Shown here piece after piece: positions 18,513 to 64,000 of a DNA stretch of 64,000 nucleotides. Below the pieces are notes generated by a model. It was not told the origin of the DNA and ran no database searches. It saw nothing but the letters and a program-made list of their open reading frames with translations. Made by a program: the position numbers and the translations under genes. Each line of letters begins with the position of its first letter. Position 1 is the stretch's first letter. The stretch is from Brevibacillus brevis (lineage in GTDB: Bacteria > Bacillota > Bacilli > Brevibacillales > Brevibacillaceae): NCBI RefSeq assembly GCF_001039275.2, contig NZ_CP030117.1, forward strand, positions 1,137,501 to 1,201,500. Direction: 5' to 3'.

Positions 18513-18592
18513 ATGATGGCAACCCGGCTATCATGGTCAAAGACTGTAGACCCGTGGTTTTGCGTCGCCACCTTTCGATGACTTTGCCTTTT
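18513..18592 (-). promoter_or_regulatory. Cyclic di-GMP-I (GEMM-I) riboswitch aptamer
   Basis: Read on the minus strand, the P1 arms GGCAA and TTGCC enclose the class signature: CGAAAGGTGGCGACGCAAA, an ACCACGGGTCTA helix, then GATAGCCGGG. The GAAA tetraloop, the GACGCAAA three-way junction core and the GCCGGGTTGCC receptor side match the GEMM-I consensus. It controls the GNAT-like/MCP operon through the terminator that follows. Confidence 0.88.
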
Positions 18593-18729
18593 GCATTTAT
18601 TAGCAAAATTTGTAAAAACGTGTCGAATTTTGCTAGACATAATCATGCAAAATATAAGCCAAAAGATATATCTTTGTCAAGTTTTGGTAGGGAAAAGAAA
18701 CTAATTGTTCATAAAGTATGAACGTACGA

Positions 18730-38440: not shown

Positions 38441-38469
38441 CTGAGACATTCAATAAAACAACCAACACA

Positions 38470-38752
38470 GCCGTGAAAAGGAAAGTAAAAAAGGGATTTT
38501 GACGTCCAGAGAGTTGCCTGTTAGCTGAGAGGGCAGCCGCGAACTCTTTTTGAAAGCCACCTTGGAGCTCTGCTTTTGAAAATGCCAAGTAGAAAGCAGC
38601 GGATGGCCCACGTTATGGGGCGCATGTCTTTGTAGACAGCACGAGTTTGCCTTTTGTGAGAGAGGCAAAAAAGCTGAGTGGTACCGCGATACCTTCGCCT
38701 CAGCAATCAGATTCATGGAAATCATGAGTCTGGTTGCTGGGGCTTTTTGCAT
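38470..38752 (+). promoter_or_regulatory. T-box leader, probable alanine specifier
   Basis: Stem I elements (GTGAAAAGGAAAGTAA, AGAGAGTTGCC to CGCGAACTC) lead to GAAAGCCACCTTGGAGCT, where the specifier is most likely GCC (38556-38558, Ala). The T-box core AGTGGTACCGCG (38677-38688) carries TGGT, matching an A discriminator as in tRNA-Ala. The terminator is CAGCAATCAGATTCATG pairing with CATGAGTCTGGTTGCTG (38701-38743), then GGGGCTTTTT. Uncharged tRNA would favour the antiterminator and read-through into the regulator and aminotransferase. Confidence 0.88.
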
Positions 38753-46230: not shown

Positions 46231-46420
46231 TCACTGAAGATAGCTCACCACGTTTGCTTGGCATGCAAACGTGACAGTTCTGCCCCTTTCGAGTACAGCC
46301 CCAACCCAATCGCACAGAGACGCGATATGAGCTTCGGCGGATTTTCCTTACCTGGAGTCATTGATTTTCTCTGAATCTCGTACAGGATGATATAAAAGCC
46401 GCGACCTCTATCCTCACCGT
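46231..46420 (-). promoter_or_regulatory. Lysine riboswitch (L-box)
   Basis: On the minus strand the P1 arms GAGGATAG and CTATCTTC enclose AGAGGTCGCG, GGAAAATCCGCCGAAGC, GGGTTGGGGCTGT and AACTGTCACG, all conserved L-box blocks. An intrinsic terminator follows. Bound lysine would favour termination and shut off lysP. Confidence 0.92.
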
Positions 46421-58317: not shown

Positions 58318-58791
58318 ATGACAAGAAAGTGCAAAAAACAGGGTAAACACTACGGTCACCACTGTTGCAGCAAAAAGCACGACAACTATTACGACCACCA
58401 CTGTTGCAGCAAAAAGCACGACAAGTATTACGACCACCACTGCTGTGGCAAAAAACACGACAAGTATTACGACCACCACTGCTGCTGCAAGAAACACGAC
58501 GATTACTATGAGCCTCACTGCTGCTGCAAAAAACAGAGTCATTACGATGAGCCGCATTGCTGCTGCAAAAAGCATGAACATTGCCACGATCACTGCTGTT
58601 GTTGCAAGCGCCATGATTGCAAATGCTTTAAAAAACATGACCACCACTGTTGCAAGAAGCATGAGATAGATGATGAAGACGAAGAAGAGGACGACGACGA
58701 AGACAAAGACAAAGATGAAGAAGATGACGAGGACGAAGATGATGACGATCACTGCAAGCATCACAAAAAGAAGCATTGCTGCTGCAAATAA
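58318..58791 (+). CDS. Cys/His-rich tandem-repeat protein with acidic tail
   Basis: A 157-residue protein built from 13-residue units of the type HHCC-S/G/C-KKHDxYYD, starting near residue 14. At least six units run to residue 91, and the later ones drift to PHCCCKK and CHDHCCCC. An acidic block of about 35 residues (DEDEEEDDDEDKDKDEEDDE) follows, then HCKHHKKKHCCCK. The density of Cys and His implies metal binding or disulfide cross-linking. The Tyr residues and spore-former host recall coat proteins, but that is inference. AAAGGAGG precedes the ATG at 58318. No homologous family was recognised. Confidence 0.75.
   Translation: MTRKCKKQGKHYGHHCCSKKHDNYYDHHCCSKKHDKYYDHHCCGKKHDKYYDHHCCCKKHDDYYEPHCCCKKQSHYDEPHCCCKKHEHCHDHCCCCKRHDCKCFKKHDHHCCKKHEIDDEDEEEDDDEDKDKDEEDDEDEDDDDHCKHHKKKHCCCK
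58357..58590 (+). repeat. Six 39-bp tandem repeats
   Basis: These encode the 13-residue units. The first four are almost identical in DNA (CACGACAAGTATTACGACCA core), and later copies have drifted. They are prone to copy-number change. Confidence 0.85.
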
Positions 58792-58922: not shown

Positions 58923-59720
58923 TTAAGGTAGGAGGATTCTCTTTGCTTGTGTATACACGTTCATTTTGTCATTGCGGATAAATCCGACTGCGGTGAGCTT
59001 CAGTTCATCTGCCAATTGCAGGGCGAGATCAGTTGGAGCGGACTTGGACAAAATGATGCCAGCGCCAATTTTGGCAGCCTTGAGCAGCACTTCAGATGAG
59101 ATGCGTCCACTGAATACAAGAATTTTGTCCGTGGTGGAAATGTTATCTCGCAAGCATTTCCCGTAGATCTTGTCGAGAGCATTGTGACGTCCGATGTCGG
59201 AGTACTGAAGCAAAATTTCATCCGGTGTACAGAGGGCTGCATTGTGGACGCCACCTGTTTGGCGGTGGATATCAGACGACGCTTGCAATTCTTTCATCAG
59301 GCGCATGCATTGAGCGGGAGTGACAGTTGTTGTGCTTTCAACGGGCTTTGCTGTGCGCGCATCGCTAAAAAAGTAAAAGGATTGTCTGCTTTTTCCGCAG
59401 CAGGAAGTAATTCTGCGTTTGGAGTAAAAGCTCTGCGACAAAATCGTTTCTTTATGTAAATCAACGTAAGCAAACCCTTGGGCCTCATTAAGCGTAAGCT
59501 GTTTGATTTCCGAGTAGCTCTTGATGACACCCTCGGCTGCGAGAAACCCAATGACCATTTCTTCCAGGTCGGCTGGAGTACATACGATTGTAGCGAATTC
59601 CTCATCATTAAGGAAAATCGTGAGGGGGTATTCGGTAACGATTTCGTCGTCTTCCCAGCCATGTTGGTCAGCCGTAATTTTCAACACGGGCAATCGGGTG
59701 GTGATGGTTAGTTCGGACAT
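58923..59720 (-). CDS. fdhD: Formate dehydrogenase accessory sulfurtransferase
   Basis: A 265-residue FdhD that moves sulfur from a cysteine desulfurase onto the molybdenum cofactor before its insertion into formate dehydrogenase. The reactive Cys pair is in RITSCCGKSRQ; typical segments are TEYPLTIFLNDEEFATIVCT, RQTGGVHNAALC and YSDIGRHNALDKIYG. It is divergent from the OFA carrier and serves the FdhF-like enzyme encoded 2.3 kb away. Confidence 0.93.
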   Translation of the reverse strand: MSELTITTRLPVLKITADQHGWEDDEIVTEYPLTIFLNDEEFATIVCTPADLEEMVIGFLAAEGVIKSYSEIKQLTLNEAQGFAYVDLHKETILSQSFYSKRRITSCCGKSRQSFYFFSDARTAKPVESTTTVTPAQCMRLMKELQASSDIHRQTGGVHNAALCTPDEILLQYSDIGRHNALDKIYGKCLRDNISTTDKILVFSGRISSEVLLKAAKIGAGIILSKSAPTDLALQLADELKLTAVGFIRNDKMNVYTQAKRILLP

Positions 59721-59878: not shown

Positions 59879-60061
59879 CGGAGCAGCGACCCTGCCACCG
59901 ATTATTTTGTAGCCTTGCAGCGAATTACATAGTGAACACAATGCTTGTTGATGCTGATGTAGCGTTCCTGCTGATGATTAACTGCTGTGTTTCATCGTAG
60001 CCCTCGTTTCCATTTGTGGAGACCTGGGTGAGTCGGTGAAATCAGCAGTTTTTCTTTTTTT
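59879..60061 (+). promoter_or_regulatory. Dual-hairpin leader (L1) upstream of the OFA carrier
   Basis: Hairpin P1 (59879-59900) is GCAG-CGACC-CTGC with an outer CGG/CCG. Hairpin P2 (59959-59971) is GTAG-CGTTC-CTGC. Both have the apex AGCGNNCCTG. The 3' arm of P2 is also the start of the terminator arm CTGCTGAT (59968-59975), which pairs with ATCAGCAG (60041-60048) before a TTTTTC-TTTTTTT run. P2 and terminator are therefore mutually exclusive. The same design is found at 61816-61972. Confidence 0.55.
59968..60061 (+). terminator. Leader terminator upstream of the OFA carrier
   Basis: CTGCTGAT and an inner TTTCATCG pair with CGGTGAAATCAGCAG, and a long T-run follows (60049-60061). The start codon is about 60 nt further on. 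Confidence 0.6.
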
Positions 60062-60121
60062 CGAGAAGGCTGCTGATGGATCCACAGCATGCTAGAGACC
60101 ATTGCGAAGGAGATGAATGAT

Positions 60122-61396
60122 TTGGAACAAAAAGTGAAAAACCGCTGGCTCATTGCGTTGGCTGCGGTAGGCATCCACATCTCGATTGGATCGGTATACG
60201 CATGGAGTGTATTCACCAAGCCAATTACCGAGCAGTTCGGCTGGGACTTGCCAGACGTTCAATTTACGTTTAGTATTGCGATCTTGTTCTTGGGGCTGTC
60301 TGCTGCCTTCCTCGGTCATTATGTAGAAAAGCATGGCCCACGCAAAGCTGGCATTCTCGCATCTATCTTTTTTGGAGTAGGAACTGTCGGGGCTGGCTTG
60401 GCGATTCAATTGAGCAGTTTGCCTCTCTTGTACTTGTGTTATGGGGTACTTGGCGGTATTGGTCTTGGTGTAGGGTATATTACGCCCGTATCGACGTTGG
60501 TCAAATGGTTTCCGGATCGCCGAGGTTTAGCAACAGGTCTTGCGATTATGGGCTTCGGCTTTGCTTCCATGATTGCCAGTCCAATTATGAACGCCTTGAT
60601 TGCAAATGTAGGAATTGCGAACACCTTTTATATTTTGGGCATTATTTATTTCGTTGTAATGTTGGCCTCGGCTCAATATTTGGCTCCACCTCCAAAAGGT
60701 TGGGTACCGGCTGGATTTTCCGCTGAGGGAACAGCTGGCAGCAAGCAAATCAAAAAGGATTTGTGCCAATTAACTGCCAACGAAGCGATCAAGACACGCC
60801 GTTTTTACTGGCTGTGGTTGATGCTTTTTATCAACGTGACATGTGGAATCGCCGTTATTTCGGTAGCATCGCCGATGGCGCAAGAAATGGTGGGCATGTC
60901 TGTCGGAACAGCAGCTCTGATGGTAGGGCTAAACGGTTTGTTCAACGGTGGTGGACGAATCGGATGGGCGTCTCTGTCTGATTTCATTGGACGACCAAAT
61001 ACGTACACAGCTTTCTTTGCCATCCAAATGGTATTGTTCTTCCTGTTACCGAATATGTCCAATCCAATCCTGTTCATGGTCGCGATGTTTATCATTATGA
61101 CCTGTTACGGTGGTGGCTTTGCATCCATTCCGGCTTACATTGGTGACTTGTTTGGAACGAAGCAATTGGGCGCGATTCACGGCTACATTTTGACGGCATG
61201 GGCTGCTGCCGGCTTGGCAGGACCGATCTTTGCAGCATGGGTTCGCAAGACGACAGATAGCTATACCGGAACCATGAGTGTTTTCGCAGGGATGTTCGTT
61301 GTCGCTCTCGTGATCTCGCTATTAGTCCGCCTGGATATCAAAAAACTAAAGGAAGAAGCCAAACAAAGAGAAAAGTCTGTTGAATTGGCTAGTTAA
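60122..61396 (+). CDS. OFA-family MFS transporter (oxalate/formate antiporter-like)
   Basis: A carrier of about 424 residues with twelve spans, of the oxalate/formate antiporter branch of the major facilitator superfamily. It has NRWLIALAAVGIHISIGSVY, WSVFTKPI, LGVGYITPVSTLVKWFPDRRG with its conserved loop, and IGWASLSDFIGRPNTY. The formate genes around it suggest formate exchange. The start is uncertain: TTG at 60122 is 9 nt behind AAGGAG, ATG at 60113 touches that site, and ATG at 60089 has none. It is expressed behind leader L1. Confidence 0.87.
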   Translation: MEQKVKNRWLIALAAVGIHISIGSVYAWSVFTKPITEQFGWDLPDVQFTFSIAILFLGLSAAFLGHYVEKHGPRKAGILASIFFGVGTVGAGLAIQLSSLPLLYLCYGVLGGIGLGVGYITPVSTLVKWFPDRRGLATGLAIMGFGFASMIASPIMNALIANVGIANTFYILGIIYFVVMLASAQYLAPPPKGWVPAGFSAEGTAGSKQIKKDLCQLTANEAIKTRRFYWLWLMLFINVTCGIAVISVASPMAQEMVGMSVGTAALMVGLNGLFNGGGRIGWASLSDFIGRPNTYTAFFAIQMVLFFLLPNMSNPILFMVAMFIIMTCYGGGFASIPAYIGDLFGTKQLGAIHGYILTAWAAAGLAGPIFAAWVRKTTDSYTGTMSVFAGMFVVALVISLLVRLDIKKLKEEAKQREKSVELAS

Positions 61397-61449
61397 TCAA
61401 TGGTAAAGTTTAAGTAGAGAATGATTTGAAGTAAAGGTGATTTTCCTCG

Positions 61450-61815
61450 ATGAATAAGTTCGAAGCAGAATTCAGTAATTTGGTCAGGGCTTTCCGAAAG
61501 CGCCATATGGGAAAGGGACCTAGCAAGATCAGCACCACGTTCTGCAAGAACTGGGCGATTTGCGAGATGGAAGGCAACCTTTCTCCGGTGGAAAAGTTCA
61601 TCGCCACTTCGGAAGACGGAAAGCAGACATTACGAGCTGCCCGAACCGAAATGGTCAAAGAGATCTATCGGAAACACCAGCCAGTTGACATGGAAGCGTT
61701 TCTTGGAGCAAAACTCGTTGATCTATTCGTCGATATTGACATTGAACGGGATTTTGGAATGTCGATCTTTGTTTTTGATCAAGACATCGAAAAAAGAATG
61801 AAAAACGAACCGTAA
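61450..61815 (+). CDS. DUF2294-family protein
   Basis: A 121-residue alpha/beta protein. Family-like stretches are ISTTFCKNWAICEMEGNLSP, VEKFIATSEDGKQTL and LVDLFVDIDIERDFGMSIFV. Members of DUF2294 are often next to formate dehydrogenase or transporter genes in bacilli, as here, but their role is unknown. It starts 53 nt after the carrier, without a terminator between, and ends directly before leader L2. Confidence 0.75.
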   Translation: MNKFEAEFSNLVRAFRKRHMGKGPSKISTTFCKNWAICEMEGNLSPVEKFIATSEDGKQTLRAARTEMVKEIYRKHQPVDMEAFLGAKLVDLFVDIDIERDFGMSIFVFDQDIEKRMKNEP

Positions 61816-61972
61816 GTCTAAACGAAGCAGCGTTCCTGTTCACCGGCTTAGACGTAACGGAATTCGCAAAAGCAAACACGAAGTTGAGACTAGGTAGCGA
61901 ACCTGCCGTAGACAACCACCGTGAACACGCTCTTTTCCTATAGGACAAGGGACGGTTTCATGGTGGTTTTTT
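61816..61972 (+). promoter_or_regulatory. Dual-hairpin leader (L2) upstream of the FdhF-like gene
   Basis: Hairpin P1 is framed by GTCTAA (61816-61821) and TTAGAC (61848-61853) and has an apex GAAGCAG-CGTTC-CTGTTC (61824-61841). Hairpin P2 is GGTAG-CGAAC-CTGCC (61893-61907) over a lower stem GTTG/CAAC (61883-61886, 61913-61916). The terminator arm AACCACCGTGAA (61914-61925) shares AAC with that lower stem and pairs with TTCATGGTGGTT (61957-61968) before TTTTTT. The apex AGCGNNCCTG is the one seen twice in L1. Confidence 0.6.
61914..61972 (+). terminator. Leader terminator upstream of the FdhF-like gene
   Basis: AACCACCGTGAA pairs with TTCATGGTGGTT (12 bp with one G-U) and is followed by TTTTTTC, 38 nt before the start codon. 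Confidence 0.8.
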
Positions 61973-62009
61973 CGTCTCAATGGAGTTTATTAGAGGGGAG
62001 ACAAAAGAA

Positions 62010-64000
62010 ATGGGCAAGACCAAGCATGGCGGACCAATTAAGCTGGATACTTCGTGGAAGCCTTCCTTATGGGCTTCACTGATGCCGATGGGACTCGGAA
62101 AAATCAAACCGCATCACATTCGCGATACGATGAAGGTGGCCTATGACAATCGCGATAATTTGGGTTATGCCTATCGCATTTTGACGCAAGGGGTATGTGA
62201 TGGCTGCGCTCTCGGCGTATCCGGTCTCTACGATCAGACGTTGACTGGTCCGCATTTGTGCACTACACGACTGAACGTACTGCGCCTCAATACCATGCCT
62301 GCCATGGATGCCAAATGGTTTGAAGACGTGAATGCCCTGCGTAAGCTGTCTAGCGAAGAATTACGCAAGCTGGGAAGAATTCCGTATCCGCTTTCAAGAA
62401 AGCCAGGCGAAAACAAGTTCACCCGCATTAGCTGGGATGAAGCGTTAAACCGTATCGCGAGAAAAATCAAAAACATCAGCCCGAAACAGTTGGCCTTTTT
62501 CTTGACCGCTCGTGGGATTACCAACGAGGTATATTACACGGCAGCTAAAATGGCTCGTTTCCTCGGAACCAACAACATCGACAACGCATCGCGTATTTGT
62601 CACTCACCGAGTAAGACAGCATTGAAGCGTTCGGTTGGAATTGGTGCATCGAGCTGTAACTATCAGGATTGGATCGGTACCGATGTGCTCGTATTCTGGG
62701 GCTCTGTACCAGGTAACAACCAGCCTGTATCGACGAAATACATGTATGCTGCGAAAAAAGCAGGAACGAAAATCATCCTGATCAACCCGTACAAAGAGCC
62801 AGCGATGGAGAAGTACTGGATTCCATCTGTACCGGATAGTGCTTTGTTCGGAACGAAGATTGCGGATGATTTCTACCAAGTGAACATTGGCGGCGACATT
62901 GCATTCATGAACGGCGTGATGAAGATTTGGTTCGAGATGGAGGAAGCCAAGCCAGGCTCTGCGATCAACCATGAATTCATCAAGGAGCACGCGAACGGAA
63001 TCGAAGAGCTGCGCAAGCATGTGATGAATGAATCGTGGGAGAAAATCGTAGAATCCTCCGGTCTCAGCCGCGAGCGTATCAAAGAATTCGCGCAACTGCT
63101 CGCCAACTCCAAAAATGGTGTATTCGTATGGAGTATGGGTCTGACCCAGCACAAATTCGGTACGGACAATATTTCTCAAGTAGCCAATCTGGCCATCCTT
63201 CGTGGGTTCTTGGGTCGCAAGCACACTGGTCTCATGCCGATTCGCGGACACTCCGGCGTACAGGGCTCCGGTGAAATGGGTGCTGATCCGTTCAGCTTGC
63301 CAGGTGGAGATTTTGAAGAAAAATCCTGGAACCGCATTGAAAAAATTTGGAATTTCCCAATCCCGAAATGGCAAGGAGATATCGTCGGTATTTCTTTGGA
63401 GAATGCCGTGTTGCCAGATGGGCATGAGCGCAAGACCAGATTGTTCTATACGAGTGGCGGCAACTTCCTGGAGACGATGCCAGATCCGGACTTCATGCAA
63501 AAATGCTTGGAGAGCATAGAAGTGCGTGTACATCAGGACATCATTTTCAATACATCTACGTTGGTGGACGCGAAGGAAGAAGTAATCGTACTGCCAGCGA
63601 TGACTCGATACGAGCAGCCGGGTGGCGGTACTTCGACTAGTACAGAACGTATGGTCTACTTCAGTGCCGAAGTGGAAGGGCCACGTATTGAAGAAGCGCG
63701 TTCGGAATGGGAGATTTACGTAGATCTGGCGGCACGGGTAAATCCAGAGAAAAAGCATCTGATGCACTTCTCAAGCGCAGCTGAAATTCGCGCAGAGATT
63801 GCCCAGGCGAATCCGAACTACGATGGTATCCAGCATCTGAAAAACCGCGGAGATGTTTTCCAATGGGGCGGGGCATGGTTGTGTGAAGGCGGCGTATGCC
63901 CGACACAAGATGGCCGAGCGAATCTGATTCCGATTGAAATTCCCGATTTGAACAAGCCAGAGGGACACTTCTATGTAACGACTCGTCGCGGTAAGCAGTT
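62010..64000 (+). CDS. FdhF/YdeP-family molybdopterin oxidoreductase (truncated by window end)
   Basis: The frame runs 663 codons to the window end without a stop. It resembles the FdhF/YdeP branch of formate-dehydrogenase-like molybdopterin oxidoreductases. The N-terminal Cys motif GVCDGCALGVSGL would bind an iron-sulfur cluster. The Mo-ligand site is NASRICHSPSKTALKRSVG, with Cys where E. coli FdhF has selenocysteine. MGD contacts include VFWGSVPGNNQPVSTKYM and MPIRGHSGVQGSGEMGADP. The ATG at 62010 follows GAGGGGAG. Nearby mobA, fdhD and the OFA carrier fit a role in formate oxidation, although some YdeP members serve acid or redox stress. Confidence 0.88.
   Translation, partial: MGKTKHGGPIKLDTSWKPSLWASLMPMGLGKIKPHHIRDTMKVAYDNRDNLGYAYRILTQGVCDGCALGVSGLYDQTLTGPHLCTTRLNVLRLNTMPAMDAKWFEDVNALRKLSSEELRKLGRIPYPLSRKPGENKFTRISWDEALNRIARKIKNISPKQLAFFLTARGITNEVYYTAAKMARFLGTNNIDNASRICHSPSKTALKRSVGIGASSCNYQDWIGTDVLVFWGSVPGNNQPVSTKYMYAAKKAGTKIILINPYKEPAMEKYWIPSVPDSALFGTKIADDFYQVNIGGDIAFMNGVMKIWFEMEEAKPGSAINHEFIKEHANGIEELRKHVMNESWEKIVESSGLSRERIKEFAQLLANSKNGVFVWSMGLTQHKFGTDNISQVANLAILRGFLGRKHTGLMPIRGHSGVQGSGEMGADPFSLPGGDFEEKSWNRIEKIWNFPIPKWQGDIVGISLENAVLPDGHERKTRLFYTSGGNFLETMPDPDFMQKCLESIEVRVHQDIIFNTSTLVDAKEEVIVLPAMTRYEQPGGGTSTSTERMVYFSAEVEGPRIEEARSEWEIYVDLAARVNPEKKHLMHFSSAAEIRAEIAQANPNYDGIQHLKNRGDVFQWGGAWLCEGGVCPTQDGRANLIPIEIPDLNKPEGHFYVTTRRGKQ

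Follow-up and report, generated by a model that had tools for sequence, protein, structure and literature searches.

A conserved CGNNC-loop hairpin overlapping intrinsic terminators in the leaders of formate-dehydrogenase modules of Bacilli

The DNA analyzed here (the window) is a stretch of 64,000 nt from Brevibacillus brevis. At its 3' end, fdhD lies divergent from a leader (leader 1) that is followed by an MFS carrier gene, mpsC, a second leader (leader 2), and an fdhF-like gene (Table 1), and this gene order was common to nearly all of the 30 loci compared. The fdhF-like gene is truncated by the end of the window, beyond which the genome continues with moeA and mobB; the module therefore comprises the MFS carrier, mpsC, fdhF, fdhD, and moeA-mobB. 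An earlier reading of the sequence alone (the sequence-only reading) had named the first gene a formate carrier, a name that was not upheld, as the product scored as an L-lactate MFS transporter of the SfMCT type and was below the cut-off of the oxalate/formate antiporter family TIGR04259 (186.8 against 335 bits). The name FdhF was correct as far as the FdhF/YdeP family is concerned, but the cut-off for formate dehydrogenase alpha (TIGR01591, 666 bits) was reached neither by the part of the gene before the window end (304.9 bits) nor by a 786-aa FdhF homologue in locus L133 (336.5 bits). The product is an FdhF/YdeP-family oxidoreductase of putative substrate, for which the genomic setting points to formate.

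A promoter scan of the window detected no strong sigma-70 site ahead of leader 1. Between a MobA-like gene and fdhD, an open frame of 157 aa (58318-58791, +) with His/Cys-rich repeats (CCSKKHD..DHHCC) may represent a metal-binding protein or a repeat artefact. The RNAs matched by Rfam in the window were a T-box leader (38464-38705, +), a lysine riboswitch (46233-46418, -), a c-di-GMP-I riboswitch (18515-18598, -), and a cluster of five tRNAs (4-452, +).

Table 1. Positions in the window of the module genes and of the hairpins and terminators in the two leaders.
Feature	Position	Strand	Description and basis
fdhD	58923-59720	-	Module member, divergent from leader 1; TIGR00129 232 bits, synteny
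Leader 1 H1	59879-59900	+	CGG-(A)GCAG[CGACC]CUGC-CA-CCG
Leader 1 H2, putative antiterminator	59947-59982	+	Outer stem GUUGAU/AUUAAC, internal loop, GUAG[CGUUC]CUGC; models R1, R2
Leader 1 intrinsic terminator	59980-60050	+	AACUGCUG...CAGCAGUU; U tract to about 60062; AAC 59980-59982 in common with H2
MFS carrier	60089-61396	+	First gene of the module; NCBIfam SfMCT L-lactate type, 466.9 bits (cut-off 320)
mpsC	61450-61815	+	121 aa, DUF2294 (PF10057), candidate trans factor; Pfam 114.3 bits (gathering cut-off 23), H2 co-occurrence
Leader 2 H1	61816-61853	+	Outer stem GUCUAA/UUAGAC, AGCAG[CGUUC]CUGUU; sequence and fold
Leader 2 H2, putative antiterminator	61883-61916	+	GUUG/CAAC, CUA/UAG, GGUAG[CGAAC]CUGCC
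Leader 2 intrinsic terminator	61914-61968	+	AACCACCGUG...CAUGGUGGUU; U tract to 61972; AAC 61914-61916 in common with H2
fdhF-like gene	61980-63998	+	FdhF/YdeP-family molybdopterin oxidoreductase; TIGR01701 801 bits (cut-off 582)

The decamer AGCGNNCCTG was found as an exact match at 59885, 59961, 61829, and 61896, all on the + strand and twice in each leader, as the sequence-only reading had reported. By itself, the decamer is weak evidence, since 1.5 occurrences are expected per 64-kb window and 5 of 100 shuffles reached four. The paired form is no chance occurrence: the 6.4-Mb genome has only two copies of the pattern AGCGNNCCTG-N40-70-AGCGNNCCTG, one in each of these leaders. Among 39 genomes of the order, 32 had the pattern, in most cases exactly two times and 2 kb apart, against 1 of 39 for a reversed-pattern control.

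Each decamer forms the tip of a short stem with a CGNNC loop (YAG[CGNNC]CUG), as had also been noted, but it makes up only part of the two hairpins of each leader, H1 and H2. In the aligned leaders, the consensus of H1 in leader 1 was CGG-RRYAG[CGNNC]CUGUY-A-CCG, and H2 consisted of an outer stem (GUUGR/YUAAC), an internal loop, and an inner stem (GUAG[CGNNC]CUGC), with GUUGG-UACUUGGUAG[CGNNC]CUGCUAAAGA-CUAAC as its general form. A C-G pair in the internal loop of H2 was invariant across the Brevibacillaceae set, and the pentaloop was closed by G-C in all the aligned leaders of this set, the A and G of AGCG being part of the stem. A hexaloop reading of AGCGNN was dropped, as its closing bases (C/U with C) are unpaired. 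The loop occurred as CGNNC, as UGNNC, or lengthened to 6 or 7 nt (for example, CGAAUC and CGGCUAC), and thus the nearly fixed points are the G at the second loop position, the last C of the loop, and the AG/CU pairs below it. A long-range helix between the segment after H1 (CGGUUA in several species) and the 3' strand of H2 with its AAC was likewise rejected, since it showed no covariation and performed no better than interspecies strand swaps.

Compensatory changes were detected in both hairpins. For H1 and H2 together in 37 leaders, 88.5% of the cells were paired and nine pairs had changed on both sides (0/500 shuffles). In the promoter-proximal leaders, five of the eight pairs of H1 had changes on both sides, and the hairpin was kept in all the aligned leaders from the family. 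For H2 alone, eight pairs showed double changes among 45 MAFFT-aligned sequences (0/500 shuffles), and 92.5% were paired on 104 distinct matches (0/500 shuffles for the main measures) in an alignment that was made to the model and hence leans towards the structure. Neither the window leaders nor 13 related loci contained a match reaching the gathering score of any Rfam 15 family, and the window leaders gave only a chance match to an snoRNA at E values up to 5, in agreement with the earlier statement that no known riboswitch fits. These results confirmed both hairpins of each leader as genuine conserved structures.

The overlap between H2 and the terminator was found at the AAC that ends the H2 outer stem. 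Of 149 distinct leaders, 143 have a 3' arm that leads directly into a U tract and pairs at no fewer than 8 of 10 positions with the strand starting at this AAC, compared with 128 of 745 controls with a shuffled 5' arm. The sequence-only reading had located the overlap correctly in leader 2 (61914-61916), but in leader 1 it had proposed 59968-59975 in place of the conserved AAC. The segment 59968-59975 is an alternative complement to the 3' arm of the leader 1 terminator near 60041-60048, and it is absent in most relatives. H2 and the terminator have only about 3 nt in common, and the inner part of the leader 2 H2 is able to coexist with the terminator in the fold. The free folds of both window leaders contain the terminator, with -46.7 kcal/mol in leader 1 against -39.8 kcal/mol when H2 is forced, and -36.3 against -34.1 kcal/mol in leader 2. 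Since the terminator fold is favored by about 7 and 2 kcal/mol, respectively, the formation of H2 should need a stabilizer.

The covariance-model search proposed with the sequence-only reading extended the family well beyond the window. Of 399 genomes of the class, the whole-leader model matched 45, including 11 from families other than that of the window, and the H2-only model matched 51, belonging to 18 of 145 genera, with carriers spanning the relatives of Bacillus, Paenibacillus, and Brevibacillus. A pattern scan of all species (one genome per species; 84,980 species) yielded 77 matches on 75 stretches, all of which were Bacilli by name except three contigs ('Bacillota bacterium', Pseudomonas sp. 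ISL-84, and Chryseobacterium sp. ISL-80). The H2 leader is restricted to formate-dehydrogenase modules: all 77 scan matches were inside the module, where they preceded fdhF, fdhD, the carrier, or mpsC, or directly followed mpsC at the end of a contig piece. The contigs labelled ISL-84 and ISL-80 (L153 and L163) carry a Bacillus-type module and are probably mislabelled or contaminated, since the sister ISL strains are Bacillus. In one genome (G002; L034 and L140), only the last 40 codons of the carrier are left, the H2 of leader 1 has degenerated, and mpsC is interrupted by a single in-frame stop; this module is a decaying copy.

The two hairpins differed in their distribution. In the species-wide set, leaders of first genes (before the carrier or mpsC) had H1 and H2 in 39 of 41 cases, and 67 of the 68 intercistronic leaders outside Brevibacillaceae had H2 without H1. 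H1 was also missing from another five leaders, mostly of Cytobacillus, which stood before fdhF and were counted as first since the gene upstream was unseen or more than 200 nt away. In the second leaders of Brevibacillus, H1 was present in most and degenerate in some; elsewhere the H1 of leader 2 was mostly absent. As intercistronic leaders outside Brevibacillaceae usually have H2 only, the pair is not the essential feature, and H2 is the core unit, with H1 belonging to promoter-proximal leaders. The sequence-only reading is therefore partly supported. Its view that both leaders contain the same regulatory RNA, which overlaps a terminator and places the carrier and the oxidoreductase under one control, stood, while the paired-hairpin plan did not stand as the working unit; its expectation that homologous leaders would keep the pair partly failed for H1, which is often missing, and held for H2, which is kept with compensatory changes.

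H2 precedes three non-orthologous types of formate dehydrogenase (FdhF/YdeP, selenocysteine FdhA, and ForC-type FdhA) in at least 18 genera. In G058 and G060, reading a single in-frame TGA (context CNRTUHAPSVTG) as selenocysteine turns the gene after H2 into one for a full formate dehydrogenase alpha subunit (819 and 829 bits; cut-off 666), and SelB was above its cut-off in both genomes. Genes for formate dehydrogenase that are interrupted by an in-frame TGA were observed at L125:2060-4147 (-) and L127:745-2856 (-), and both genomes contain SelB; these selenocysteine enzymes would be split in two by ordinary ORF calling. In G059, a ForC-type enzyme of 1013 aa (853 bits) lies behind H2, and the ForC enzymes of B. 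subtilis oxidize formate (PMC8808070). Where fdhF is missing, H2 was found before moeA-mobB (G003 and G025) or fdhD (G026 and G028-G030). DUF2294 proteins elsewhere in Bacilli adjoin ForC-type enzymes, DUF1641-like partners, and FdhD, in some genomes together with a similar MFS carrier, as judged from translations without a family scan. The same hairpin ahead of selenocysteine and ForC-type FdhA in other genomes strengthens the formate link, and together with DUF2294 beside ForC-type enzymes it ties the module to formate. In the literature searched, neither a description of such a leader nor a regulator of this formate-dehydrogenase module of Bacilli was found. The H2 leader is thus a real cis-regulatory RNA family of Bacilli for formate-dehydrogenase modules, and apparently an undescribed one.

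The occurrence of H2 was compared with that of MpsC, the DUF2294 (PF10057) member of the module. A close MpsC (at least 210 bits) was found in 47 of the 399 class genomes, and all 47 had H2; the other four H2 genomes had a more distant MpsC within the same module. An FdhF orthologue (at least 69% identity) was present in 67 genomes, of which 40 had both MpsC and H2, none had MpsC without H2, one had H2 without MpsC, and 26 had neither, these genomes being non-independent because of co-inheritance of the module. In the single exception, G161, H2 is accompanied only by a 47% MpsC. When 13 FdhF loci lacking a close MpsC were searched with a sensitive method, no H2 was detected. H2 therefore tracks MpsC and not FdhF, as 26 FdhF orthologues are without it. 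Cytobacillus genomes with a leader but no adjoining mpsC have a 77-79% identical mpsC elsewhere, beside fdhD, which makes a role in trans possible.

The relation between MpsC and H2 is an association inside one module and no proof. DUF2294/MpsC paralogues occur by a ForC-type formate dehydrogenase, a DUF1641-like gene, and FdhD in many Bacilli without H2 (L271-L288), and the family seems to be associated with formate dehydrogenases generally. H2 was absent around the ForC-type DUF2294 loci and around the remote Cytobacillus mpsC, where a simple hairpin scan gave scattered single matches. A lone GCAGCGGCCCUGU hairpin at L286:5499 (-), 33 nt upstream of the mpsC of a ForC-type locus, may be a chance match or a diverged H1. 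Since ForC-type loci have MpsC without H2, MpsC may be a mere accessory of the dehydrogenase that is co-inherited with H2. Its structure model is confident (pLDDT 93.6), and a search of the PDB library returned middling matches only (part of the FtsK motor with Z 7.2, TRAPP, and AlaX), giving no functional hint and no convincing RNA-binding relative. In S. aureus, mpsC follows mpsAB behind a weak terminator and is dispensable for MpsAB function (PMC6689103), whereas here the DUF2294 family is linked to formate dehydrogenases; in the literature searched, DUF2294 was named in an unrelated context only.

On these data, each leader is probably an attenuator, that is, a regulated terminator, in which H2 serves as an antiterminator stabilized by a factor acting in trans, with MpsC as the leading candidate. 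By default, the AACNGCC strand would pair with the 3' arm, and RNA polymerase would halt before the carrier in leader 1 or before fdhF in leader 2. When H2 forms, the 3' side of its outer stem would take the AAC at the start of the terminator strand, and a factor keeping H2 closed would block the foot of the terminator beside the U tract and allow read-through, so that the bound state would be the ON state. H1, which has the same YAG[CGNNC]CUG tip and lies near the transcript start, may provide a second, helping site in promoter-proximal leaders. MpsC would report formate or the state of the dehydrogenase. We propose only tentatively that the module's own MpsC is the factor that stabilizes H2. 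It is rather doubtful whether the leaders represent a new antitermination RNA family read by DUF2294/MpsC, as a formate- or CO2-linked regulator that binds YAG[CGNNC]CUG hairpins and thereby admits RNA polymerase to the dehydrogenase, carrier, and cofactor genes.

A metabolite riboswitch would close H2 without a protein, through binding of formate, a one-carbon compound, molybdate, or Moco to H2, with H1 helping in first leaders. The unpaired CG..C loop positions and the C-G of the internal loop are conserved, and the RNA keeps strictly to one metabolic module regardless of enzyme type, as a riboswitch might. A single hairpin of 36 nt without a junction or pseudoknot would, however, be a very small aptamer; moreover, the other Moco genes of the genome have no copy, H2 goes with the presence of MpsC and not with that of FdhF, and the extra helix between the segment after H1 and the AAC strand lacks covariation. 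We consider a riboswitch unlikely. Another RNA-binding protein, or a ribosome terminating on mpsC just upstream, might instead decide whether H2 forms. Antiterminator hairpins bound by protein are an established class, and in 33 of 60 loci the outer stem of H2 begins 0-19 nt past the mpsC stop (e.g., L132:5193 and L133:5632), where a terminating ribosome would cover the 5' strand of H2 and translation coupling would be possible. This explanation is nevertheless quite unlikely, as the H2 of leader 1 has no reading frame of the module upstream and no further protein family recurs beside the leaders: in ORF clustering of about 90 loci, the frequent families were the module genes and their shadows, with no further regulator.

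It is improbable that the leaders contain ordinary intergenic terminators with hairpins that merely protect or process the mRNA, without regulated read-through; terminators are frequent between genes, but the loop and internal loop of H2 are conserved in sequence and stand in a fixed register to the terminator. ANTAR antitermination of the EutV/NasR type on the dual hairpin is hardly credible, even though two hairpins precede the terminator and the genome has an ANTAR response regulator. The CGNNC loop is no A1/G4 hexaloop, four genomes with leaders (G003, G025, G031, and G036) have no ANTAR gene, and G026 and G028-G030 have ANTAR yet only unpaired H2 by these searches. The wrong loop and the four genomes refute ANTAR as the general factor. 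An attenuator with H2 stabilized in trans is the preferred reading. Whichever factor acts, an RNA that follows the dehydrogenase through three enzyme types offers a concrete handle on the regulation of the module and on MpsC. If MpsC binds H2, it would be a new class of RNA-binding antiterminator and this would be the first function for a widespread protein family; if a small molecule does, H2 would represent a riboswitch of very small size serving one-carbon metabolism.

The dual-hexaloop antiterminators of ANTAR proteins (EutV and NasR) are also leader hairpins, the last of which is exclusive with an intrinsic terminator, and their binding leads to read-through (PMC3369931, PMC8934654). The H2 leaders share this exclusion, but have a CGNNC pentaloop in place of the A1/G4 hexaloop; unlike in ANTAR targets, one hairpin suffices in most intercistronic leaders, and some carriers have no ANTAR protein. 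The Moco riboswitch (PMC2408646) likewise controls molybdoenzyme-related genes, whereas the H2 leaders had no Rfam match and both copies in the genome are in this module. Guanidine-II (mini-ykkC) RNAs also have two small hairpins with CG in their loops, but these loops are ACGR and precede other genes; two hairpins with ACGR loops are not present here, and membership in this class fails, as the sequence-only reading had concluded from the loops for both guanidine-II and ANTAR. The H2 RNA is a member of none of the families tested. RAT antiterminators (BglG/SacY/LicT) are single short hairpins with an asymmetric internal loop, the 3' side of which overlaps the 5' arm of a terminator. No RAT sequence was seen in H2 by eye, and H2 belongs to dehydrogenase genes, whereas RAT belongs to sugar PTS operons; in plan, however, H2 resembles RAT, as it too is a single short hairpin, asymmetric in its internal loop, and overlaps the 5' arm of a terminator.
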